Source: Amoebophrya sp. AT5.2 (Eukaryota > Sar > Dinophyceae > Syndiniales > Amoebophryaceae). From it: 10,243 bases of DNA. This document shows, one piece after another, positions 1 through 10,243 of the stretch. The position numbers and the translations under genes were made by a program. The stretch is taken from assembly GCA_005223375.1 (NCBI GenBank), contig RXOD01006475.1, forward strand, positions 1-10,243, read 5' to 3'. The notes beneath the pieces were generated by a model, which was given only the letters and a program-made list of their open reading frames with translations, was not told the DNA's origin and made no database searches. The first letter of the stretch is position 1. The number at the start of each line of letters is the position of its first letter.

Positions 1-23
1 ACCGCCGGCAGTAGAATTGGCAA
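1..23. repeat. Terminal direct repeat marking circular closure
   Basis: Bases 1-23 are identical to bases 10221-10243. In an assembled contig, an exact end-to-end overlap with a gene interrupted at the same point indicates a circular molecule, here about 10,220 bp. The transposase-like gene supports this: its 5' half is at 9464-10114 and its 3' half at 262-609, and they meet only if the ends are joined. A true terminal repeat of a linear element is the alternative, but 23 bp is short for that. Confidence 0.9.
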
Positions 24-38
24 CAATATTGCCAGTTC
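14..38. other. Candidate replication-origin hairpin
   Basis: A 10-bp stem (14-23 with 29-38, one G-T wobble) closes a 5-nt loop CAATA (24-28). Bases 24-32 read CAATATTGC, which differs at one position from the NANTATTAC nonanucleotide nicked by many CRESS-DNA Rep proteins. The TATT is partly in the stem rather than wholly in the loop, which is atypical. Three iterons follow within 75 bp, and the genome encodes a Rep. Origin function is inferred. Confidence 0.55.
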
Positions 39-47
39 CGCCCATTT

Positions 48-112
48 CGTCGCCAAACCGTCGCCACGACGGTGACACTTTTTGCCCGCGTAGCGGCAAA
101 AAATCGTCGCCA
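48..112 (+). repeat. Three exact CGTCGCCA iterons beside the origin hairpin
   Basis: CGTCGCCA occurs at 48-55, 59-66 and 105-112. The middle copy is embedded in a 7-bp hairpin (57-63 with 67-73). Another hairpin, TTTTTGCC at 79-86 with GGCAAAAA at 95-102, separates copies two and three. Short direct repeats next to a stem-loop are the usual Rep recognition sites in CRESS-DNA replicons, and that role is inferred here from position and exact repetition. Confidence 0.55.
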
Positions 113-136
113 GTGGCACGCACGTGACGGCTCCTG

Positions 137-220
137 GCGGACGAACTTGGCCATTTTTCGTTCATAGATAAGTAAAACTTTTACTTGATCTTTAAACGAA
201 AAAGTAGCAAGTTCGTCCGC
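137..220. repeat. 84-nt imperfect cruciform in origin region
   Basis: An outer 13-bp perfect stem (GCGGACGAACTTG at 137-149 with its complement at 208-220) is followed by a 4x4 internal loop. A 9-bp stem comes next (TTTTTCGTT at 154-162 with AACGAAAAA at 195-203). At the tip is an 8-bp palindrome with one central base (AAGTAAAA 170-177, TTTTACTT 179-186). About 30 pairs in 84 nt will not arise by chance. It may be part of the origin, a packaging structure or a transposon-like end. Confidence 0.75.
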
Positions 221-261
221 GCGCGTGCGCAACTTTTTGAGACTACTTTGCCATACTACAG

Positions 262-609
262 GCCGTAAAGCAGTTCGTGCCGCGCGCGTACTTCGGCAGC
301 TTGGACCAGTTCTGCATCGCACATTTTTTGGCGACGCATTTTTTGCCGGTGTGGGAGGAGTTCCGCCGAAGTCTTCCGCCGGAGGAACGCCGCAGACACT
401 ACGGCATTTTGATTTGGGATCAGGCGTCAACCCACCGTGCGGTTGCCCGTCAGGGCGCGGTTCTGGGCGAGAACCTTTTCCTGCACGAAGTACCGGCGGA
501 GTGTACTTCGCTGGTTTCGCCGCCAGCTACACAGAGGGTTACTGCTCGGGTAGCTGTATCGTGCTCGGGCGACGTCGCTGCGCCTAACTATTTCGTTCCC
601 TCATTATAA
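262..609 (+). CDS. DDE-superfamily transposase/integrase-like protein, 3' exon
   Basis: This is the C-terminal part of the gene that begins at 9464. Read from 262 it gives 115 codons and stops at 607-609. A segment rich in aromatic and basic residues leads into GILIWDQASTH, the classic hydrophobic-D-x-x-x-x-H signature of the second catalytic Asp in DDE_1 (pogo/Tigger-type) transposases. It is followed by VPAECTSLVSPPATQRV, which aligns with the usual P-x-x-T-x-x-x-Q-P-x-D-x-x-V block. The third acidic residue expected in that block is not present (Ala or Thr instead), so a standard DDE active site is not complete. In the spliced model the second Asp is near residue 270 of 332. The stop overlaps a TATAAA motif at 605-610. 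This exon may be a decayed or domesticated form. Confidence 0.6.
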   Translation, partial: AVKQFVPRAYFGSLDQFCIAHFLATHFLPVWEEFRRSLPPEERRRHYGILIWDQASTHRAVARQGAVLGENLFLHEVPAECTSLVSPPATQRVTARVAVSCSGDVAAPNYFVPSL

Positions 610-610
610 A
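605..610 (+). promoter_or_regulatory. TATA-box-like motif upstream of gene A
   Basis: TATAAA lies at 605-610, overlapping the stop codon of the transposase-like exon. It is about 465 bp before the gene A start, so if used, the leader would be long and highly structured. An acceptor-like TCTTATTCCAG ends at 629. Promoter activity is inferred from the motif only. Confidence 0.3.
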
Positions 611-632
611 TTTCGCAGTCTTATTCCAGGGA

Positions 633-1006
633 GGCACCCGCAGGCGCATCCCTACACGGCAAGCCCTGCCGCCGCTGGTGGCTTTACTCCGGCTGCGGCG
701 CCCCGTGTGCGGCCAGAGGGTGCCCCGGCATGCCGCCCCTGCTCGTCCGGGAGAGGCCGAGAGCGGGGCCGCATGCTGGGCCCCCGGGGTGGTCTCCCGG
801 CAGCCACCCCGCAAGGTGGTGGCCACCCCGGGGGGCCCAGCCGGCCCCCCGCTTGCGGGTGAGGCAGGAGGGTAGGGCACTTTTTTCGCCCCACCCTCCT
901 GCCCCCGTCCTTCCGCCTTTCTACTCTGCCCCACCGCCCTCCTTTCATCCTCTGGCGGGCTCACTGGTACAAATGAAAAGACTTCATTTGTACCAGTCAG
1001 CCCGCC
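633..1006. repeat. GC-rich array of strong inverted repeats
   Basis: This stretch has no convincing gene. It holds: a small CGGCA/TGCCG hairpin (657-671); a long hairpin with arms 775-792 and 823-841 and one unpaired base; an inner hairpin (804-808 with 815-819); an 11-bp hairpin (863-873 with 893-903) extended by 4 bp around a T-rich loop; and a near-perfect hairpin with arms 954-977 and 983-1006, 23 of 24 positions paired and a 5-nt loop. GGCACCC (633-639) can also pair with GGGTGCC (718-724). As RNA this would be an extremely structured leader for gene A. As DNA it could be a second origin, a packaging signal or a MITE-like insertion. Which it is cannot be told from sequence alone. Confidence 0.75.
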
Positions 1007-1073
1007 CCGCCTCCCTCCCCCTGAATGGACACGGCCGAGCACGATTATCGCACCCGTAGCAGTCGCCCGCTTT

Positions 1074-1847
1074 ATGGCGCACGTTGGTGGTCTTTTTCGT
1101 AGCCTCAAGGCAGCCTTGAGGCGTATGACCAGGAAGCACCTGCCGCCGGCCACGGAGGACAGATGGCAAGACCACGGCCGACGGCTACGACAGGTTTGGG
1201 AGCTAGGGCGGCAGTACACGCGTACCTACTGTGTTCGGTCGCAATTTCATTATTGCGGCTACAGTGATTCTCTTGATGGAGGGAATCACTTGCTGCACCA
1301 TCGATTGCGGGACTTTCTCATAGAAAAGAACTTTCGCGCGATGGTGAACGTGTATATTCGCCCTGAAAGGGTGACTGAGTGGGCAAACAGACGCAGAGCC
1401 TACGCCGCGGCCCACCAGGAGTTCGCGTTCGACCCGTTCTCCTCTACCGACGAGGGCGAGTCGGTCGACTTAGAGGCGTCGGCGCCTGGTCTGCACGACG
1501 CCGAAGCAGCGGCTCCTGCGCAGGGAAGCGAGGACGACTCGGACAGCGACTCGGACGCAGCGCGGGACGTGGGCGGCGACAAGCGCGAAGACGTTCTGCT
1601 AAAGGCTTGCATTTTTCAGGTGCGTCGGGATGCGCCGAAGAAAGCCACGTGGAACAAAGACGAGGTCACGGCACGAGCTGTGGCTCTCAGGGCTACGCTG
1701 CGTGCTCCGTGGGACGACAACTCAGAGGTGGAGAATATGGAGAATGATAGGAAGATGATTGCGTACAATAAGCTTATTCTGCAGCAGCGCGAAGCAGCTA
1801 GGCAGGCGCGAAGCCAGCAGCAATTTCAGAGCCAACCCCAACGCTGA
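1074..1847 (+). CDS. Gene A: orphan 257-aa protein with acidic patch
   Basis: I do not recognise this protein. It opens with a basic segment (residues 8-40, rich in Arg/Lys) and has a Cys/His-containing stretch at about residues 53-76. A central region follows that is moderately rich in aromatic and basic residues. Residues 151-162 form an acidic Ser/Asp run (EDDSDSDSD), a typical casein-kinase-2-type phosphorylation context. The C-terminus (about 220-257) is Gln/Arg-rich and probably helical. It reads as one open frame without an intron. The start at 1074 is the first ATG in frame, and a later in-frame Met is at codon 18. The first codons contain a perfect 21-nt palindrome (1102-1122). Similar acidic Ser/Asp runs occur in the Rep and in genes D and E, suggesting a shared nuclear or phosphoregulated setting. 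It could be a DNA-binding or structural protein, but there is no direct evidence. Confidence 0.7.
   Translation: MAHVGGLFRSLKAALRRMTRKHLPPATEDRWQDHGRRLRQVWELGRQYTRTYCVRSQFHYCGYSDSLDGGNHLLHHRLRDFLIEKNFRAMVNVYIRPERVTEWANRRRAYAAAHQEFAFDPFSSTDEGESVDLEASAPGLHDAEAAAPAQGSEDDSDSDSDAARDVGGDKREDVLLKACIFQVRRDAPKKATWNKDEVTARAVALRATLRAPWDDNSEVENMENDRKMIAYNKLILQQREAARQARSQQQFQSQPQR
1102..1122. repeat. Perfect 21-nt palindrome in 5' end of gene A
   Basis: GCCTCAAGGC (1102-1111), one base, then its exact complement (1113-1122). It sits in codons 10-17 of gene A, 29 bases after the start. It could be an operator-like dimer binding site or a hairpin that slows translation initiation. Confidence 0.7.
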
Positions 1848-2149
1848 AGATAGGCCTCCAATTTTGTATACAGCAATGAATGAGTGCTGCCTTCCAATTT
1901 TGCAATTCAGTCCTGACTTTTTCTTGCAGCAACAAGTACATCGGAACGCAAGTGAAGCGTAGCGGTGACCGCTCGCGCGAGAGGTGGTAGTGATGTTCCC
2001 CGGCAGCGAAAGTGAGAAAGTGACGCGTGAATTGCCGCTGCGCGTGTTGGTTGCGCAGCGGTCGCCACTAGCGCAACAAGCAGTGGCGCGTCCGGTTCGT
2101 CGTCGTAGCTAATGCCAATCAAAGATCGTTCTTCTACTAGGCACGAACT
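1848..2149 (+). promoter_or_regulatory. Intergenic region, probable Rep promoter and leader
   Basis: There is no gene in these 302 nt. The 10-mer TCCAATTTTG occurs exactly at 1857-1866 and 1893-1902, so two CCAAT-box-like elements lie 36 nt apart. A pyrimidine-rich acceptor-like CTTTTTCTTGCAG ends at 1929. A small hairpin AGCGGT/ACCGCT lies at 1961-1973, followed by the palindrome CTCGCGCGAG at 1972-1981. Another acceptor-like TTCTTCTACTAG ends at 2140, only 9 nt before the Rep ATG, so a 5'-UTR intron or a trans-splice acceptor is possible. Confidence 0.35.
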
Positions 2150-4440
2150 ATGTCGAAAAAAGCCTCCTCTCGGTCCATGAAGCGCGCGGCCGGGGAGCTG
2201 CAGCCGAACGCCGCCGTCGGTGACATGTGGGGCATCTCTCCTCCAAAAGGCGGCCTTCACGCTGCTGCTGCCGACTTCACAGACCGAGGAGAAAGCGACT
2301 CCGACGACAGCGACGAGGGCTCTGCGCTGAACGCGCAAGGCGACCTTTTCGGCGATAGCAGCAATGAACAGAACGACTTCGGGGCCCGCACGCAAGGTCC
2401 GTTTCCGCCGCAGCAGGACGTCAGCGCGAGCTCGTCGTCAGCCGCGCAACCTGCTCAGCCTGCTGGTGCGAAGCGCCGGAAAAAAAAGGACTTCGACGAA
2501 ATGGCAAAGGCGTGTCCGGGTAAGCCGGCAGAGGAGCAGTACGTGCCGCCGGAGCTCAAGGAGCCAGTTTTCGACGAGACCAAAGAGTGGGACATGGGCA
2601 CAATCTTAAAAGACTCTGTTCACGTCAAGACGCACGACTTACGTACCATCCCCATAAGCGCGCAGGGCGACTCCGGCTACACGACTGTTTTCGCGTGCTG
2701 GAGCGAAAAAAAGACTTCGGGGTGGACGAGAAAAAAGGTCGCCACCATTTTCCTCGAGGCGGTCAAAAAAGCAAAGCATTGGAACCCGAACGACTTTTCG
2801 CTCTTCGTCGCTCGCGAACGAAAGCGCACGTCGGTGGTCGAAAGAATTGCTCGCGCCAAAAAGGGCATCTCGCGCGACGATGACGAGGAGTGGGGGTGGC
2901 ATGTGATCATCGACTTCGCGGCGCGCACGCAGGCCCTGCACAAGCTAGAGGCATCCTTCAAAGCCATGAAGCATAACGTGGCCCTCGAGGTATTTCCTTT
3001 CATTGGTATTCTAATTGCAGGCCGATGCATATGGTTCGCGAGCATGCGCAATTTTTTCCACCTTCCTCTCACAAACTTCTCTTTCGTTTCCGCCCATGCG
3101 TCGCAAAATCTTTCCAGATTGTCGCTCCGGGAAGAGGCGGAAACCCGCTGGTGACGCCGTGCGAGTACTTGATGAAATATAATCCGGAAAAAGAAGTCGA
3201 TGACGAGCCAATGAGTCTCCTCGGATTTCAAGTCCCCGCCAAGGCTTTGGAGCTGGTCAAGAAGCAGGCCGAACGCATGAAGAATAAACCGCTTTCGGAG
3301 CTGGAGGTGCACGCGTTTCTGGTGGAGCGACCGAAGCTGCTGAGAAAAAGAGGGAAGGCCGCGATGCAGTCAGCGCTCGTGGGCATGGCTACGGAGCTCG
3401 AAGGCAAGAAGAACGACCCAGGTACTACAAACTTCTTTCTTTTTCTTTCCTCTACACCACGTGCGATCGCAGCAGAGATATTCCTGCCCGCGTCTACAAT
3501 AAGAACTTTCGTCAACACAGAGTACATTCCCTTCATGCGCATGCTGCGGTGGATGGGCTCCGTGAATCAGCAGCAGTTCGCAGCCACGTTGGCCACGGCG
3601 CAGTACCTATGCGACGAGAGGTTTTACAAGATGCCCGTCAAGAAATTCATCGACATGACGGCGGGCACTTGCCGCTGCTGTACGAAGGACTTGAAGTTCA
3701 CGGTCTTGAAGCGCATGGTGGAATTCCACGGCGACGGTTTGGCGGAGTGCATCGGCATGTACCTCGTCCGACTCCAGGACGAGGCGCCAGGGAGGGAAAA
3801 CGGGATTTTGTTTTTTGGCGCAGCCACCGGCACTGGCAAATCCACTCTGGCGCTGGCGCTCGTCGAGATCTTCCCGGACAGCATGGTTTTCGTGCCTGTC
3901 CCCGACTCGAAGTTCCCGTACGACACGTACGACGCGGCGAAAATCAAGGCGCAGCTGCTAGACGAGTTCCGGACAGACGTCGACGGCTTCACGCCGCAGC
4001 TGATCTTGCGCGCGACGGGCGGGGATAAGCGATTAAAGATTTCGCAGAAAGGGGTGAGTGGATGTGACTTTGTTGGGGAAAGTGGGTTTCTCCCGCGGAC
4101 GGTAATGACTACAAACTACCTACTCGCCAAAGGACAATGGAAAAGTCCAGACTTAGCTGCACTCAAGAACCGGTTTTGCGCTCTGTATCACTTTCACAAA
4201 GATATTGATCCGGTAAAAAAGCTGACGCCCAACAACTTTAAAATCAGTGAGGAATGCCCCTGCTGCAGTAGAAAATGGGCACGCCACTGCCGCGCGCAGT
4301 ATGTTAAGAACACGCACCTCGGAGAGCAACATGCGGCGCACCTAAAGGATAAGAATTACATGAACGATAAGTTGATACTCCATGCAGCTCGCAATGATTC
4401 TGGCAGCAAGATGGATACGTCCGAGAACTTCTTTCGTTAG
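2150..4440 (+). CDS. rep: Replication initiator (CRESS-DNA-type Rep: HUH-like endonuclease plus SF3 helicase), spliced
   Basis: Predicted to nick the origin and unwind the circle during rolling-circle replication in the nucleus. Exons 2150-2989, 3118-3421 and 3473-4440 give 703 aa; if the 51-nt second intron is retained, 720 aa. In order: an acidic Ser/Asp run at about residues 48-57; a basic nuclear-localisation-type cluster KRRKKK at 108-113; and an endonuclease domain at about 175-305. That domain has a motif-I-like TVFACWSEKK, a motif-II-like WGWHVIIDF with only one His, and motif III YLMK at 297-300, just after the first splice junction. The helicase follows, with Walker A GAATGTGKS (497-505), Walker B LLDEF (543-547) and motif C MTTN (593-596), the SF3 order. 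A Cys cluster (448-451) precedes it, and a CPCC...HC...H...H cluster (643-671) may bind zinc. It is about twice the usual length of CRESS Reps. Codon use turns more AT-rich after about 4050. Family placement is not possible by eye. Confidence 0.85.
2990..3117 (+). other. Rep intron 1 (128 nt)
   Basis: The Rep frame changes between 2989 and 3118. Donor GTATTT at 2990 and acceptor CTTTCCAG ending at 3117, with a long pyrimidine-rich stretch before it, join two exons in phase 0. The join restores the expected strand between motifs II and III, leading straight into YLMK. Removing only 2990-3020 (also ending in TTGCAG) runs into a stop, so it was not chosen. Confidence 0.8.
3422..3472 (+). other. 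Rep intron 2 (51 nt, frame-neutral)
   Basis: GTACTA at 3422, a strongly pyrimidine-rich interior, and GATCGCAG ending at 3472. Its length is a multiple of three and it has no stop, so retention would add 17 residues of unusual composition without breaking the protein. The next AG (ending 3475) is an alternative acceptor. The composition contrast with its flanks and the GTACT-type donor shared with other introns favour splicing. Confidence 0.6.
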
Positions 4441-4741
4441 CACGGCAAAACACAGGAAGCGATGACTTTTTTTTGAGCAAACCATGATCCCTAGTAGTGC
4501 TCCGAGACCTGCTCTTCAGCGTGCGTAAAGCGCGTGCGAGAGCTTTTTGGGAGTTCGTGGCGTTTCTGTGCACGTCGATCATTTCCGTTCACCGTCGCGT
4601 GCGCTGCAAGATCTCTCAGGTTTCGACTGCAGAGGTCCGCAACTTCGTGTATAATGTGGCGTGCCGAAAAAAGATCCTTTAGTTCAAGGCAAGCGTGAGT
4701 AGATCCACCGCTCGGGCGATACCGTACAACAGCATCCAAAG
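4441..4741 (+). promoter_or_regulatory. Rep 3' region and gene C upstream region
   Basis: There is no convincing gene in 301 nt. A T8 run followed by GAG lies at 4467-4477, just after the Rep stop. It is one of several such elements after stop codons in this molecule. A TATAAT motif at 4650-4655 lies about 87 nt before the gene C ATG and could be its TATA element. The open frame 4497-4682 begins at GTG, lacks an ATG and has no recognisable features. Confidence 0.35.
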
Positions 4742-6723
4742 ATGGGCAACGACAAGTCGTGTGACTCCAAGACGCCCGTGGGCGCCGACGTGCCTGCGTC
4801 GCAAATCTCCAACGGCAATGCCGACGTGCCTGCGTCGCAAATCTCCAACGGCAATGCCAGCAACCTGGCCGCCAACATGCCCGTCGAGCCGGAGGTACTC
4901 TCTAGAGCGTAGCAGAACGAAAGGTCTTTATTTTAGCACCAGGCGGCGACACATGTATTTTTTTTTTTGGCTTCCTAATGCCAAAAATCTAAATCTAAAC
5001 ACAACTCGTTGAACAGCTATGAACGCTTTTTTTTTTGGCCTCGTAATCTCAAAAATCTAAATTTGCGACAGGTTCCGTCGCAGGTGACGAACACCCAGGT
5101 GACAGCGACCACCCGCGCGCCCAGCACCAATGCGTCGCAGGTGACCACGGACTCCGAGAGTCAAGGGCAGCAAGGCTACACTGGGTACGCGTCGGGCCTG
5201 ACGAAGATCACGAAGGTGTCCCGGAAGGGTACTTGCCCCCCCACCACGATCGAGAATCGCGGTGCCGGAGCCATGTTTCTGCCCGGATCCGTCCGCCCGG
5301 CGCCGTACGGGACTGCGTCGAAGGTGCCTGTCGGACCGACCACGGCGGCGAACAAGACTGAGGTCCTGAACCCCGACGCCTCCCTGTCGACTCCGAACGC
5401 GGCTTCTGCGGCTGGCGGAGGTGTGGCTGCTGCAACCGAGGTGAAAGAGAAAGTCGTGTCTGCGGACCCTGGCGCAGTCGTTGGCGGGCTCGCAGCTCCG
5501 GTTGTGCCGGTTTTTGCCGCGATCCCCGACTCTGCGCTCAAGGCGGCTGCGAGCCACGCTTTCGCGGCTGCGAACCCGACTCCTGCGCCCTCTCAGCCCG
5601 ATGTGCCTGTCGCGGGTGCAACTCCGGCTGATGCGGAAACCGGAGCGACCCCCAACAGTCAGCTGCAGGTACTTATCTACATACAGACGCTACGTAAGTA
5701 CTTCTTTGCTAGGTAGGAGTCGATAACTACGCACTTCATTGGTAGGTGAGAGTCCATCGCAGTAAACGCTCGAAGCTTTGTGGACACAAACGCAATCACC
5801 TACTATCAGGTGCCGGCCACGCCGGAAAACCTGAACGAAGTCCACGTGAACGCCGATACCGACACCATCGAGATGCTCGCTGGTGTGTTCGAGCTGCTCG
5901 GCCTGCCGCTGCTGCCGAACTTGGATCAGATCCCGGCAGAGTTTGTACAACACTTCTGGCTCTTTTTTGTATGCTTATGATGCATCATGCAACTTGACGG
6001 TTATAGCTGTCGACAAACGGCAGGTTATCGATCTACGCCCGCACTAGGTTCGTACCAAGTGCGGAAAAGAGGACCCGCGTGTGATGTGGTGGTACAAGAT
6101 GCACATCGGCAGCACCTTGTACCTGAAGTACGCGAAAAAGAACGAAGTGATTTTTCCGCCGGGACTGGACGTGATCGAGGACCACCTCTCGGACGACAAG
6201 GAACCGCTCTTCTTGCTCAACGAATCCGAAATGTTGACCCTGAGAGACAGATGCCAGCTGAACAAAGAGATGAAAGTACTACCTGATGTAACTATAGATG
6301 CGCAGCTTACTTTTGAGAGCAGAAAAGCCGAGGGATAGAACATGTAGACAGCTACACCATGACTCTAACTTCGGGCGGAGGCTGTCGCGATTTTCTACAA
6401 CAGCGAAAAACTTCCCTCTTCAGGTGTACGCCCTCGTGATGTTTTTGGACAAGCAGTTTATTTTCACGGACTGCGGCGTGGCGGGGGCCTGGGGCAAGCA
6501 CATGATCTATAAACACGCGAGTTTGCACTTGCGCGAGGGAAACCTGAATAATGCTGTCCAGGGCTGGGCGAACGAAGCCTTCGCGCGGATCTCCCAGACC
6601 TCCTCCCGGGCGGCGCACATTCAGGCGCAGTGCACTATGGAGAACCTGCTGATCGCGGCCGACCACTACTCGATGCTGGACTGCCCCGAGCCGCGCCGCA
6701 ACCGCCGCGGCGGCGAGGAGTGA
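4742..6723 (+). CDS. Gene C: orphan spliced protein, about 489 aa, candidate structural protein
   Basis: Predicted exons are 4742-4894, 5072-5668, 5753-5944, 6048-6275 and 6424-6723, all joined in phase 0. The start MGNDKSC fits an N-myristoylation signal (Gly-2, Ser-6) with an adjacent Cys for palmitoylation. Exon 1 carries a 12-residue unit ADVPASQISNGN repeated exactly. Exon 2 (residues 52-250) is low-complexity, rich in Ala, Pro, Thr and Val. The rest, from about residue 255, looks globular, with hydrophobic strands and several Trp. The tail is Arg-rich (RRNRRGG). I do not recognise a family. A membrane-anchored capsid, matrix or other structural protein is the best guess, by inference only. 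Intron 2 could instead be 5694-5762 and intron 3 could start at 5969, changing the length by a few residues. Confidence 0.65.
4784..4855 (+). repeat. Exact 36-bp tandem duplication in gene C exon 1
   Basis: 4784-4819 and 4820-4855 are identical and encode ADVPASQISNGN twice. The perfect identity implies a recent duplication. Related V-P-S-Q-V and N-A-S-Q-V-T motifs appear at the start of exon 2, so this may be the newest copy of an older repeat series. Confidence 0.9.
4895..5071 (+). other. Gene C intron 1 (177 nt) with internal tandem repeat
   Basis: Donor GTACTC at 4895 and acceptor TGCGACAG ending at 5071 give an exact in-frame join. The intron contains two imperfect copies, 68 nt apart, of a unit: a T10-11 run, GGC, then TAAT and CAAAAATCTAAAT (T-runs at 4958-4968 and 5027-5036). 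The second copy leads directly into the acceptor and supplies its branch/pyrimidine region. Confidence 0.75.
5669..5752 (+). other. Gene C intron 2 (84 nt, boundaries ambiguous)
   Basis: The reading frame closes at 5714-5716 and resumes from about 5753. Donor GTACTT at 5669 with the AG ending at 5752 is in frame. Donor GTAAGT at 5694 with CATCGCAG ending at 5762 is also in frame, and its sites are closer to the general eukaryotic consensus. The two differ by five residues in the product. Confidence 0.6.
5945..6047 (+). other. Gene C intron 3 (103 nt, donor ambiguous)
   Basis: Coding moves from one frame (ending near 5968) to another (open from 6048). Acceptor GCACTAG ends at 6047. The donor is GTACAA at 5945 or GTATGC at 5969, both phase 0. 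The in-frame TAG inside the acceptor confirms that an intron or a frameshift is needed here. Confidence 0.6.
6276..6423 (+). other. Gene C intron 4 (148 nt)
   Basis: Donor GTACTA at 6276 follows a Lys codon. Acceptor CCCTCTTCAG ends at 6423 after a pyrimidine tract. The join is phase 0 and links two stretches with convincing protein composition, with stops in the spliced-out part. Confidence 0.75.
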
Positions 6724-7397
6724 GGAAACGACGATTTTTTTTGAGCGAGAGCAATACGTCCTGCATAGGAAGTGCAACGCTTACTCTACTTCAGGTATAG
6801 CAACAAAGGCGAGCTTTACACCTTAGGTACAGCAGTAGCGACATAAGTCCTTCCGACAACATCAGAGCTACATGTATATTCAGATCATTCACTTCGTTTT
6901 GGGTACTAGCTTCTTACCCACTTCGCCACCCTTCGACTCCGTGCCACGAATAAATTGATCGTAGAACTCGGCAACAACTTGGGAATGCCTGACCATCGCG
7001 ATGCCAGTATATTCTCGAATTTAGGTCGTGCTACTATATCATCATACTTGTACTGAATTATACTACAGCTCTTCATAACTTGCACTGCCAAGAACCAAAG
7101 TTCGCGGAGCGTTTTCATACTGAAAGTACTCCGACTCGTCGCTACAGAAACCTTTGTAGCTGATGTTCCATGGATCGCGATATCCTCGATCAGCCCTATA
7201 CAACGACGAGAACAGTTTCATGCAGCACAACTGTGCCCGCGGCGTGTTCAATAGCTCGTTCCATATCGACACCGAGCGCTAGCTTTCGACGACAACAATT
7301 CTCGAGCGCTATCATCTCGCGAACAATCGCAGGGAGCGAGATCGCTTGTGTCGGAAAGGCTCGATATGTAGGTAGGGACCGCTTAGGTAGAGACGAG
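6724..7397. other. Lower-GC region without a clear gene
   Basis: A T8-GAG element lies at 6735-6745, just after the gene C stop, and AATAAA at 6949-6954 could be a polyadenylation signal for gene C. The stretch is visibly less GC-rich than its flanks. On the minus strand three overlapping frames (about 7543-7196, 7272-7063 and 7118-6906) each hold protein-like but short open stretches that hand over to one another. A decayed minus-strand gene is possible. I recognise no family. The plus-strand extension of gene D upstream of 7398 has poor composition and was not adopted. Confidence 0.4.
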
Positions 7398-8116
7398 ATG
7401 GGAATCGTTGCATCGAAGCAGGCCTCGCCGACAAAGCCGCTTCGCACGTCCGAGGACTCGTCGACGCTTGAGGCAACCAGCACCACCGCGGCGGAATCCG
7501 ACGATGGGGACAAGAGCAAAGATCCGGGCTCGGACTCCGACACGGAGCAGGAGGAGCCCGAGAAGATCTATACGATCCGCCCGCTGCACACCCCCTGGAT
7601 CCTGTCTCTCTGGGCATCGGAAAGCGAGTTCTTGCGCATGAAGCAGGAGCTCAAAAGCGTCCCCCGCGGGACGTGGTGCAACGTGACCTCGGAAAAGAAG
7701 CTGCGCAGCTGGATGCACGACCACCCCGATGACAGCCTCGGCGACATGCCGAGAAGCTGGACGAACAACTTGGGCAAGCCCTTGCAGAAACAGCAGGAGT
7801 GGAAGGTATGAAATTTTTAGCGCGAGAGACGTAGAATTAGTAAAGAGGACCTTTTATTCCCATCCCCATTTGAAAAATGAAGTTTTTAGCGCGAGAGATG
7901 TAGGCATAGTAGACGCGACATTCTATTCCCATCCCCATTGCATAACAGCTCCTCATCATGGCGGCGAGCAAACACCCGCGGTACAAGAAGCTGACGCTGA
8001 AGCTGAGATACGCGGAGGACAACCTTTTGGGAGTTCAAAAGGAAGCAAGGATGACCATGGAGCACGCGGCCGCAGCGATGGCGCTGAAGAAGAATGGTGG
8101 TCGTAAAAAAAAGTAG
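7398..8116 (+). CDS. Gene D: orphan 191-aa spliced protein with myristoylation-type start
   Basis: Exons 7398-7805 (136 codons) and 7949-8116 (55 codons plus stop). The start at 7398 was chosen because MGIVASK is a textbook N-myristoylation motif (Gly-2, Ser-6, Lys-7); the frame is open further upstream but has poor composition. Residues 15-55 are acidic and Ser/Thr-rich (SESDDGDKS, SDSDTEQEE-like runs). Residues 57-136 look globular with several Trp. Exon 2 is basic and helical and ends in GRKKK. Exon 2 alone could be a 52-aa protein from ATG 7958, but the splice sites fit well. Acylated N-terminus plus basic tail suggests a membrane-to-nucleic-acid bridging role, as in matrix proteins; this is inference. 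No family recognised. Confidence 0.65.
7806..7948 (+). other. Gene D intron (143 nt) with 69-nt tandem repeat
   Basis: Donor GTATGA at 7806, branch-like GCATAAC at 7940-7946, acceptor AACAG ending at 7948; phase 0 join. Almost the whole intron is two imperfect 69-nt copies (7810-7878 and 7879-7947). They share TTTTTAGCGCGAGAGA and TATTCCCATCCCCATT, and the second copy ends at the splice acceptor. Confidence 0.75.
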
Positions 8117-8603
8117 ACGAATGATGACCGTTTGCTTTTTGAGAAGAGGCCTCCGACACAAACAGCACAGCACAAGCAGCCCCCCCGCCCCCATTGAATC
8201 AGCCCTTTAAGCTATCCGCGGCAGGAAGATTCGACGGGGTGCGGGGTTTGACCTCAAAGTGTGTTCAGGCATGTGTTCTGCATTTGAAGAAAAGCTCGTT
8301 TTCTGCATTTGATGGCGTCTGTGCATTTAAAGGAAAAATCGGTGCAAAAGGTCGTTTCTCGTGTGAAAAAATTTGTCTCTCGTTTGAAGAACCACGTGCA
8401 CCCATCGGTCCGATTGAGATTTCTTTCCGTGTGAGTCGTTCTGTTTCTTCGTATATGTCGGCGTGCGCTTTTAAGTACTTTAAGCATACGTAATTCCCCC
8501 TGTCCCCACTTTTTTGTCGCCAGAGACTGTCGTATCCCGACGACAAACTGTTGATCAACCTACTGCTCGCGTAGCTAGGCAATTAAACTTTTTTTTTTCT
8601 AGA
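8117..8603 (+). promoter_or_regulatory. Non-coding region between genes D and E
   Basis: Contains a T5-GAG element (8136-8143) after the gene D stop, preceded by GATGAC. A lower-GC part at about 8205-8493 holds TGCATTTGA at 8279-8287 and 8304-8312 and TGCATTTAA at 8322-8330, which looks like degenerate short repeats. The frame open at 8194-8493 has no ATG until near its end, and opposing frames are open too, so it is not called a gene. A T10-CTAG acceptor-like tract ends at 8602, one base before the gene E ATG, suggesting a 5'-UTR intron or trans-splicing. Confidence 0.4.
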
Positions 8604-9395
8604 ATGGAGGACCAGGACGCAAATATTGAGAATCTCCGGTCACAGAAGAAGAATCTGCAGAGGGAGCTTAGAAGTGTAAGAAGGCTCATCGAAATATCTG
8701 TAACCGACCGAAACAACGCGAATCGTGCTACCTCTCGCGCAGCAACTGCGGCTCGTACTCGCGAGGAGGCTCGTCGTGCCTCCGGACCCAGCGCTGTTGC
8801 GGTCCCGAGCGCCAGATCTCGTGCTCGCCGTGCTCGGGACAGCGCCGTGGTGGCCCCCCGTGGCTCTGAACTGGCTTTGTGTGCCGGTGGCTCTCAGGAC
8901 CTGCTGGGAAACCTGTCACAGTACCGTGGAGCAGCTTCCGCGACCGACCGCACCGCCGGTAGCTCTCGGGACGTGCTGGGAAACCTGTCGCAGAACCGTG
9001 GAGCAGCTGCCGCGACCGACCGTACGAGGGCGGGGAAGCGACCGGCTGACCGAGATTTCGCGACCGACCGACCGAGCAAACGCACCAAGGCTGGAAAGCC
9101 ACGCTTGCAACTGCACGAGGGCGCAGACGACGACATTTTTGCTGGGAGCCAGGGGGACCTCCTCGAAAACTTAGGCGAGCTCGCAGCGGACTCGCAGGCC
9201 GTCGCGGAGGCGCAGCGTCAGCTGAGGGGAAAGAGAGCTGTGCGCGCCAACCAGGGCTCGGGGGAGTCGTCCGATTCTTCTTCCGGCTCCCCGTCCAGCG
9301 ACAGCGACGACGAGCCGAACGGGGTGGAGGACGATAGAAAAGAAGATCAGGGCAAGCAGGATCAGGAAGACGACCTGCTAGCGGAGGAGGACTAA
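8604..9395 (+). CDS. Gene E: orphan 263-aa repeat protein with coiled coil and acidic tail
   Basis: The start is the ATG right after a T10-CTAG tract. Residues 5-33 have a charged heptad-like pattern (a likely coiled coil). Residues 41-80 are Arg/Ala-rich and basic. Two 24-residue repeats follow (94-117 and 118-141) with core LGNLSQ-x-RGAA-x-ATDRT, then a degenerate third copy (about 180-198: LLENLGELAADSQ). Bipartite nuclear-localisation-like clusters lie at 143-166 (GKRPADR, SKRTKAGK). Residues 218-263 are acidic and Ser/Asp-rich, ending EED. No family recognised. The basic middle and acidic tail resemble nucleic-acid- or histone-binding nuclear proteins, which is only inference. A transposase-like gene starts 68 nt downstream. 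Confidence 0.7.
   Translation: MEDQDANIENLRSQKKNLQRELRSVRRLIEISVTDRNNANRATSRAATAARTREEARRASGPSAVAVPSARSRARRARDSAVVAPRGSELALCAGGSQDLLGNLSQYRGAASATDRTAGSSRDVLGNLSQNRGAAAATDRTRAGKRPADRDFATDRPSKRTKAGKPRLQLHEGADDDIFAGSQGDLLENLGELAADSQAVAEAQRQLRGKRAVRANQGSGESSDSSSGSPSSDSDDEPNGVEDDRKEDQGKQDQEDDLLAEED
8883..9026 (+). repeat. 72-bp tandem repeat (two copies) in gene E
   Basis: 8883-8954 and 8955-9026 are related copies encoding the 24-residue units of gene E. Differences are scattered substitutions without length change, so selection has kept the frame. Confidence 0.85.
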
Positions 9396-9408
9396 TTTTT
9401 TTTTTGAG
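9396..9408 (+). promoter_or_regulatory. T-run plus GAG element after gene E (recurring)
   Basis: T10 followed by GAG starts at the base after the gene E stop. Equivalents follow Rep (T8-GAG, 4467-4477), gene C (T8-GAG, 6735-6745) and gene D (T5-GAG, 8136-8143), and a T5-GAG is at 234-241 near the transposase 3' exon. Three are preceded by GAYGA- or GACTA-like bases. They may be 3'-end signals or splice acceptors; the sequence alone does not decide. Confidence 0.45.
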
Positions 9409-9463
9409 TACTCATCACGTGCAGGTGGCGCCTGGAGGCGTCTTTCGGTGGTGCGCGAAAACC

Positions 9464-10114
9464 ATGCTGGAGGTGCCACGAACGAATGCTCGTGGCGTTG
9501 TAATTGAGCCGCGTACCTCTTTGCCGGGAAACCGGCAAAGGGGTACGCGGCGGTCTGCGTTGGTGGAAAGCGCAGAGGAAAACACAGCAGCGTGGGTGAG
9601 GGCTGCTGACGGCGGTGTGACCAGTGACGATATTGTAGAGGAGATGCAACGACAATTACAGGAGCTGGGCGAAGAAATTTATTTTTTAGTTCACCATGAA
9701 ATTGGCAGTGCTACTGCTGCAGCTTGGGTGCCAGACTTTCTTGCCAGATGGGGCCTCCAGCGGGTCCGTGTGCACCCCCGCTACCGTACCAGGCGGAATG
9801 GATTAGAACTTTTGCAGCAGGTGCAATCGGGGTGGCACCAGTACTATCAGATACAGAACCAGGTTCACGACGCCAGCCCTGGCGTCGGGATAGAATGGCA
9901 TTTGTTTGCCTATGATGAGACGTCGATCAGGAGGATGGCGCCGCGCTCACTTATTGTTCCAGGAGAGCGCGTGGGACCGACGTTGAGGGGTGGGGTTTTG
10001 GAGGAGGAGTTCGTGGAGCTGGACTGCAGCCTCGGCTGCATGATCAGCAACTCGCAAGAGATCGTGATTGAGCCTCTGCTGCAGGTCGGGCACGTCGCTC
10101 GACGGCATCAGGGG
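9464..10114 (+). CDS. DDE-superfamily transposase/integrase-like protein, 5' exon
   Basis: This is the N-terminal part of the gene completed at 262-609 across the circular junction; the joined model is about 332 aa. The start at 9464 is the first ATG, with A at -3, in a frame open from about 9404. Residues 54-110 fit the helix-turn-helix region of pogo/Tigger-type transposases (E-M-x-x-x-L and then WVPDFLARWGLQRVR, like the W-x-x-x-F-L-x-R-x-G-L signature). Residues 143-154 hold WHLFAYDETSI, the typical context of the first catalytic Asp (D151). The second Asp is near 270, and the third expected position, about 37 residues later, is not acidic. The reading frame stays open to 10210, but family similarity resumes only at 262, so a donor (GTACTT 10115 or GTATTT 10186) is assumed. 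It may act in integration, or be a captured and inactivated host transposase. Confidence 0.6.
9508..9551. repeat. 20-bp hairpin with GAAA tetraloop inside transposase exon
   Basis: Arms 9508-9527 and 9532-9551 pair at all 20 positions (one is a G-T wobble) around the GNRA-type loop GAAA (9528-9531). A smaller 7-bp hairpin GCCACGA/TCGTGGC lies just upstream (9475-9496). The structure is exceptionally strong for coding sequence and lies near the 5' end of the gene. Confidence 0.85.
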
Positions 10115-10220
10115 GTACTTTTCTTACGCTGTTGGCCGTCCAGCACCCCTTATTTTTTCGGTGCCAAATTGAGGACAAATTACAGGTATTTAGTTAGCGA
10201 ACAACCCTGATTTCAACGGT
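10115..10220 (+). other. Probable intron of transposase-like gene, 5' portion
   Basis: Donor GTACTT at 10115 matches the GTACT-type donors of other introns here and is phase 0 with the acceptor ending at 261. The AAATTACAG at 10177-10185 could alternatively end a short 71-nt intron, but the following frame stops at once. Donor GTATTT at 10186 is a second option. After 10220 the sequence repeats the window start. Confidence 0.45.
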
Positions 10221-10243
10221 ACCGCCGGCAGTAGAATTGGCAA

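Follow-up and report, generated by a model that had tools for sequence, protein, structure and literature searches.

A candidate family of circular, intron-bearing elements with Rep and DDE transposase-like genes in Amoebophrya sp. AT5.2

Replication modules are believed to pass between single-stranded DNA (ssDNA) viruses, plasmids, and transposons, and replicons and genetic tools are scarce in dinoflagellates. Genomes of CRESS-DNA viruses are usually smaller than 10.2 kb, and in the catalytic triad of Tc1/mariner/pogo transposases the second and third residues are spaced by about 34–39 residues. To our knowledge, no eukaryotic circle carries a Rep and a DDE transposase as one conserved gene cluster. 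Eukaryotic CRESS Reps consist of an HUH nuclease joined to an SF3 helicase, and parvoviruses are linear and replicate by a rolling-hairpin mechanism (PMC6668415, in part). Here, a window of 10,243 nucleotides (nt) was analyzed, which is the whole of contig RXOD01006475.1 (C2679) in the assembly of the dinoflagellate Amoebophrya sp. AT5.2 (GCA_005223375.1; 50.7 Mb, 2,759 contigs) and which encodes both a Rep and a DDE transposase-like protein.

The ends of the window overlap by 23 nt, and all of its genes lie on one strand. Their order, Rep, a gene at the position of gene C, a coiled-coil protein, and the DDE gene, was found on one strand in three further contigs of the assembly (C2478, C2752, and C2379). 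The ends of C2478 (10,802 bp) likewise overlap by 23 nt, as read by eye, so that this contig closes too. The clustering of Rep, DDE, and coiled-coil genes, in constant order on four contigs of which two are closed, is real, and the presence of the gene set on sister contigs of the same assembly shows it. On C2752, the Rep is split head-to-tail across the contig ends into two frames that lack a direct join. The genes at the C position are alike across the four contigs in position and make-up only. A preliminary description of the window had proposed a circular element that combines an SF3-containing Rep with a DDE-like gene and would be either a protist nuclear plasmid or a large virus lineage. 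Its observations are partly confirmed, by the end repeat, the helicase motifs, the DDE gene, and the sister contigs, and its interpretation is supported and gains strength from the second closed contig and the two others of the same order. Our leading interpretation, to which we give an about even chance, is that the window belongs to a family of 10–11-kb circular, intron-bearing nuclear replicons, plasmid-like or viral, that carry a Rep and a transposase. Nuclear location, rolling-circle replication, the position of the origin, and transposase activity of the element are what we infer. Mis-assembly or a contaminant merging unrelated genes is very improbable because of the sister elements: the assembly is fragmented, but the same gene order recurs on four contigs, the conserved frames are continuous, and no sign of a chimera, which the preliminary description had named as a way to be wrong, turned up.

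The Rep, which the preliminary description had called spliced, is read from two exons across a GT-AG intron (Table 1). Judged by domain order and motifs, it appears to be an HUH-type nuclease region joined to an SF3 helicase, an assignment that is partly supported. Exon 2 contains a Walker A (GAATGTGKS), a Walker B (LLDEFRT), and a motif C (VMTTNY), and these SF3 motifs could be aligned by motif across the Rep relatives. The motif-3 tyrosine in EYLMKY aligns with RYCAIP of P0003, an intronless Rep relative from a metagenome, and with QYTMVY of C2478 (by eye). The HUH motif is intact in C2478 (HFH), C1339 (HLH), and P0003 (HYH), and Walker A has the usual spacing in C2752 (GEPGSGKS) and C1339 (GPTGTGKS). 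The Rep of C1375 has lost Walker A, which is changed to GASGFGER, so at least one copy of the family looks dead.

Rep-like frames were found on seven contigs including the window and fall into two groups. The first comprises the window, C2478, and C1938, as retrieved from the assembly with Rep exon 2, and the second comprises C2752, C2379, C1375, and C1339, as retrieved with the C2752 helicase (C1339 at an E value of 4.5e-4). When the groups were compared by profile, hhalign gave a probability of 45% and a single-pair E value of 2.2e-4 over 98 columns that take in a Cys motif and both Walker motifs (A and B). A search of the assembly with DDE exon 1 retrieved C2478, C2752, and C2379, thus both Rep groups. 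Because they share the DDE gene and the gene order, and in addition this weak profile match, the two groups are treated as one family. Gag/pol-like frames lie beside two of the Rep relatives, C1938 and C1339, once before and once after the Rep.

The window resembles CRESS-DNA viruses and Rep plasmids in being a closed contig that encodes, in one protein, what appears to be an HUH-type nuclease region followed by an SF3 helicase, but it differs in its 10.2-kb length, its many introns, its several genes, and its DDE protein. The CRESS-type Rep of the preliminary description is supported in part, by domain order and motifs. It falls short in the other respects in which the window differs from these systems: no Pfam Rep family was matched at an E value of up to 1 by the window Rep frames, the window has no nonanucleotide, and motif 2 has one His. 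The ten raw frames of the window searched against Pfam gave matches below the cut-offs throughout, those of the Rep frames being AAA_22 (E value, 0.027), AAA_16 (0.24), and DUF7296 (0.26). P0003 likewise gave sub-threshold matches to REP_ORF2-G2P (0.039) and RNA_helicase (0.28), and in PHROGs the window Rep frames had three matches at E values of 0.06–0.09. The likeness to the NS1-type Reps of Parvoviridae and Bidnaviridae consists of weak matches below significance, namely chain 9kbj for the window (E value, 0.45) and Parvo_NS1 in Pfam for C2752 (0.011) and P0003 (0.15), and the NS1 match was no longer present with a profile built from several Reps. Parvoviridae also differ from the window in being linear with rolling-hairpin replication (PMC6668415, in part).

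The DDE gene crosses the contig junction, from 9464 to 1847. The first (YDET and variants) and second (WDQASTH and variants) catalytic aspartates are kept in four of four elements, and the third precedes a VGGLFRSLKAAL-type stretch in five of five, including C1339, which is represented by this exon alone: its exon-3-like frame (FQQAVDVGGVVRSFKASLRR) lies directly before the Rep. In the window, the third aspartate spans the splice or insertion junction 526/1081. Exon 1 of the window is 38, 32, and 33% identical to those of C2478, C2752, and C2379, respectively, and exon 3 is 41% identical to that of C2478 over the matched part. With the junctions assumed, the triad spacing works out as DD35D for both the window and C2478 and as DD38D for C2752, the three elements counted. 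A profile of all pieces had the Mos1 mariner transposase as its top match in the PDB, with the LIWDQASTH region aligned to LHDNAPSHTA of Mos1 and the catalytic aspartate in register. Because this match, weak alone, joins a conserved triad, a protein of the Tc1/mariner/pogo type is the best reading of the sequence. Compared with IS630/Tc1/mariner/pogo (DDxD) elements, the spacing and the Mos1 alignment are alike, but the window has no transposon ends that were found, is linked to a Rep, and is a 10-kb multi-gene element.

Table 1. Features of the window and their coordinates
Feature	Position	Strand	Remarks
Terminal overlap, copy 1	1..23		Repeated exactly at 10221-10243, for a circle length of 10,220 bp
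DDE intron 1, 3' part	1..261	+	AG acceptor; holds the 137-220 hairpin
84-nt hairpin in DDE intron 1	137..220		z -7.07; 0 of 200 shuffles as stable
DDE exon 2	262..526	+	Holds the second catalytic Asp in LIWDQASTHR; last codons ...SPP, then G
Non-GT-AG intron or insertion	527..1080	+	554 nt; imperfect inverted repeats about 533-571 / 1032-1071
53-nt near-perfect hairpin within the 527-1080 segment	954..1006		z -11.1
DDE exon 3	1081..1847	+	Third Asp completed at junction, VGGLFRSLKAAL..., acidic tail, stop
Stem-loop upstream of Rep	2035..2061		9-bp stem, 9-nt loop; rival origin candidate
Rep exon 1	2150..2989	+	HUH-like domain; motif 2 degenerate, WHVIIDF; 36% identity to C2478 over 78 residues
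Rep intron	2990..3117	+	GT-AG, 128 nt; homology picks up in frame after intron
Rep exon 2	3118..4440	+	Motif 3 Tyr (EYLMKY), SF3 helicase
Possible in-frame GT-AG intron in Rep exon 2	3422-3472	+	51 nt, by eye
Gene C, orphan	4742..6723	+	About 489 residues; five proposed exons, boundaries by eye
Gene C, proposed exons	4742-4894, 5072-5668, 5753-5944, 6048-6275, 6424-6723	+	By eye
Gene D, orphan	7398..8116	+	Exons 7398-7805 and 7949-8116, boundaries by eye
Coiled-coil / acidic protein	8604..9395	+	Counterpart at same place in three sister contigs
DDE exon 1	9464..10084	+	Encodes the N-terminal region with the first catalytic Asp (YDET) in 207 codons
DDE intron 1, 5' part	10085..10243	+	GT donor; continues at 1-261
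Terminal overlap, copy 2	10221..10243		Identical to 1-23

When folding was scanned along the window in 409 scan windows, the DDE gene held all but one of the eight lowest z-scores, the exception starting at 5801. Local inverted repeats, defined as those with arms at most 60 nt apart and taken from the 25 longest of 80 in the window, were located at 137–220, 766–850, 778–837, 863–903, 954–1006, and 9508–9551, all within the DDE gene. These hairpins sit in its introns and one exon and are not intergenic. The scans of the sister contigs extended over their first 10,000 bases. C2478 has local inverted repeats of at least 18 nt (3019 to 3270) and C2752 a single large hairpin (6206–6388; folded part, z −2.7), both between DDE coding blocks; C2752 also has short palindromes at 1697 and 4335, outside the DDE interruption. 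The coding blocks flanking the C2478 interruption are those flanking intron 1 of the window, although its exact 5′ edge is approximate, and C2752 is interrupted at about the intron 1 position. C2379 has no intron 1 and showed weaker inverted repeats at 6574–6615 and 8711–8839. A finer scan of the non-coding stretch 1–1600 of C2478 gave two 9-bp stems. That three diverged elements carry hairpins at a common location suggests a function, and the hairpin region of DDE intron 1 is a candidate origin or recombination site. Separately, C2379 contains at 2250–2403 an inverted repeat of 75 nt, with 99% complementarity and a loop of 4 nt, that folds over the DDE stop codon and is either a real hairpin or an assembly artefact.

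The structured origin region of the preliminary description is upheld in its structure, with very strong hairpins at 137–220 and 954–1006, but not confirmed as an origin: no exact ANTATTAC is present. The stem-loop upstream of the Rep would be a rival origin, but the z-score of the surrounding 111-nt stretch was −0.8, which is not significant. Iterons in DDE intron 1 were considered and rejected, the CGTCGCC word count there being at chance level.

A number of results weigh against the interpretation of the family as circular Rep-bearing replicons. For the Rep, motif 2 of the window (WHVIIDF) is an imperfect HUH with a single His, no HUH motif was recognized in the C2752 or C2379 Reps, and the Walker A sequences of C2478 (GRQGSTGKS) and C1938 (GMVAGCGKT) are one residue above the usual spacing. 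The window Rep search misses the second group, and the C2752 helicase search misses the first. The best matches of a profile of several Reps in the PDB were clamp loaders (E value, 0.06), and an AlphaFold prediction of P0003 with two more rows gave a predicted local distance difference test (pLDDT) score of 31, which does not support a Rep fold. For the origin, the one-mismatch matches to the CRESS nonanucleotide in the window numbered 8 against 8.9 expected, and 273 of the 409 scan windows reached the CGTCGCC count of DDE intron 1. For the DDE protein, the match to Mos1 is weak (E value, 0.15), no transposase, DDE, or Rep family was above the Pfam cut-off for any frame tried, and the pLDDT score of P0004 with one more row was 37, which does not support a DDE fold. 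No transposon terminal inverted repeats were recognized among the 25 longest of the 80 inverted repeats of the window, and a TA target duplication was not found. As to closure, no end overlap was seen by eye in C2752 or C2379, and a tandem chromosomal array would yield the same closed contigs as circles.

Such an array, or a chromosomal transposon whose head-to-tail repeats were closed in the assembly graph, is improbable in our judgment. It would fit the surroundings of some relatives: on C1938, the Rep adjoins a gag/pol-like frame whose match to a reverse transcriptase is weak (RVT_2; E value, 1.1e-4; 22.3 bits, under the cut-off of 31.6), the frames after the Rep of C1339 resemble it by eye, and an SF1 helicase frame lies beside the element on C2379. 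The C1375 Rep without Walker A points the same way. The one frame beside the C1339 Rep that was scanned in Pfam had no retroelement match. On the other side, the window and C2478 are different members that both close at unit length with equal overlap length, and a search of the assembly with 1,101 bases of Rep DNA found no second copy, both of which argue against it.

Outside the assembly, a protein database search with Rep exon 2 retrieved P0001 alone, an 89% identical Rep from another dataset, and an SF3 profile added P0002 and P0003. P0002 is near-identical by eye to the Rep stretch of C1938; its source is a 10,520-bp contig in ENA, which is perhaps another circle of the family. A DDE profile retrieved P0004, a EukProt protein whose first 267 residues match the DDE product of C2379, and the window's own P0005. 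Phage and plasmid records gave no match. Literature searches for elements of this kind, in connection with dinoflagellates, Amoebophrya, DDE, or mariner, listed no description; they covered the top matches among open-access papers, so absence from print is not proven. The element, called undescribed in the preliminary description, can still be so called, as no whole-circle match to a known element turned up.

An encapsidated virus of the dinoflagellate, with a large ssDNA or small double-stranded DNA genome and a capsid encoded by one of the orphan genes, most likely gene C, is an unlikely reading. The window exceeds the usual CRESS genome size. The conserved gene cluster, which extends beyond Rep and DDE, and the 89% identical Rep in another dataset would suit a virus, as would the order of the Rep domains, which is that of eukaryotic ssDNA viruses (PMC6668415, in part). 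Against it, neither Pfam nor PHROGs gave a capsid or other virus family above its cut-off for those frames of gene C, gene D, and the coiled-coil gene that were tried, a result that also weighs on the leading interpretation. No locus came back from scans of viral contigs in IMG/VR; one stretch did encode a relative, possibly the window's own record.

The preliminary description counted four orphan proteins; we count three orphan genes, namely C, D, and the coiled-coil gene. Three frames of gene C together gave one match below the cut-off, to DUF7864 in Pfam (E value, 0.0027; 17.8 bits against a cut-off of 27), and no PHROG match, and a gene C frame showed no similarity to C2752. The intron of gene D (7806–7948) consists almost wholly of a 69-nt tandem repeat; when this repeat was considered as a genome-wide introner, an assembly search matched itself alone. 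Two-copy repeats with a spacing of 64–68 nt lie upstream of the coiled-coil gene in C2478 (5349–5472) and C2752 (4222–4353). The coiled-coil proteins of the window and C2478 are 48% identical over 69 residues (E value, 8e-13), and the identities to C2752 (29%) and C2379 (25%) are by alignment only. In Pfam, the coiled-coil frame matched OVT1 below the cut-off (E value, 0.023). C2379 additionally carries at 2–1417 a UPF1-like SF1 helicase frame (AAA_11; E value, 4e-15), found once in the assembly and lying just after the DDE gene in the same orientation; it is either a flanking host gene or an extra gene of the element.

The 554-nt segment at 527–1080 interrupts the DDE gene in the window. The frame breaks after ...ECTSLVSPP, where C2478 continues uninterrupted as ...ETTAYISPPDVGG, and removal of the segment on paper yields SPPD-VGG with a spacing equal to that of C2478. 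Its termini are CT...GC and not GT...AG. None of 499 other circle positions reached the score of its end inverted repeat, 31, and its sole match in the rest of the assembly was 59 nt at 85% on C954, with no full-length copy. A canonical GT-AG intron was rejected: either nearby acceptor turns the third aspartate to His and loses the C2478-matching TSLVSPP, and the non-canonical junction is preferred for that reason. The segment resembles the non-canonical introns of Amoebophrya strains A25 and A120, which make up more than 60% of their introns and carry inverted repeats in 11% (A25) and 30% (A120) of cases (PMC7789003, in part). If spliced, it would share with these introns and introners a non-GT-AG boundary and inverted repeats near the ends, but it differs in being one case, inside a mobile-element gene, with no full-length copy elsewhere. 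Strain AT5 has 99.98% canonical splice sites (PMC11453091, in part), which, should AT5 be the host, speaks against a non-canonical intron. Alternatively, the segment may be an insertion that disrupts the DDE gene in the window copy.

The assembly context is probably that of a dinoflagellate-type protist. The dinoflagellate spliced leader had 18 exact copies in the assembly versus 0 for the reversed control. A tubulin gene in the assembly has GT-AG introns and a TAA stop by eye, so a host Amoebophrya with reassigned stop codons is not favored. The G + C content was 50–59% in sampled stretches of three other contigs; Amoebophrya ceratii AT5.2, which is listed with 55.9% and 19,925 genes (PMC11453091, Table 1; source seen in part), would fit as the host.

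For the replicon interpretation, a mechanism can be outlined. The Rep, with its predicted HUH-type nuclease and SF3 helicase, would nick one strand at the origin, for which the hairpin-rich DDE intron 1 is the first candidate, and nicking would drive replication of the rolling-circle type. The DDE protein would cut and join DNA and thereby may integrate, excise, or resolve the circle. The acidic coiled-coil protein and the products of genes C and D may be accessory or packaging proteins. A new class of dinoflagellate nuclear element, which unites a rolling-circle Rep with a Tc1/mariner-type transposase, alternates between a free circle and an integrated copy, and has its origin within a transposase intron, is possible and is put forward tentatively. 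If the circles are real, they would represent a plasmid or virus that replicates in the dinoflagellate nucleus and would offer a direct test bed for switching between free and integrated states.

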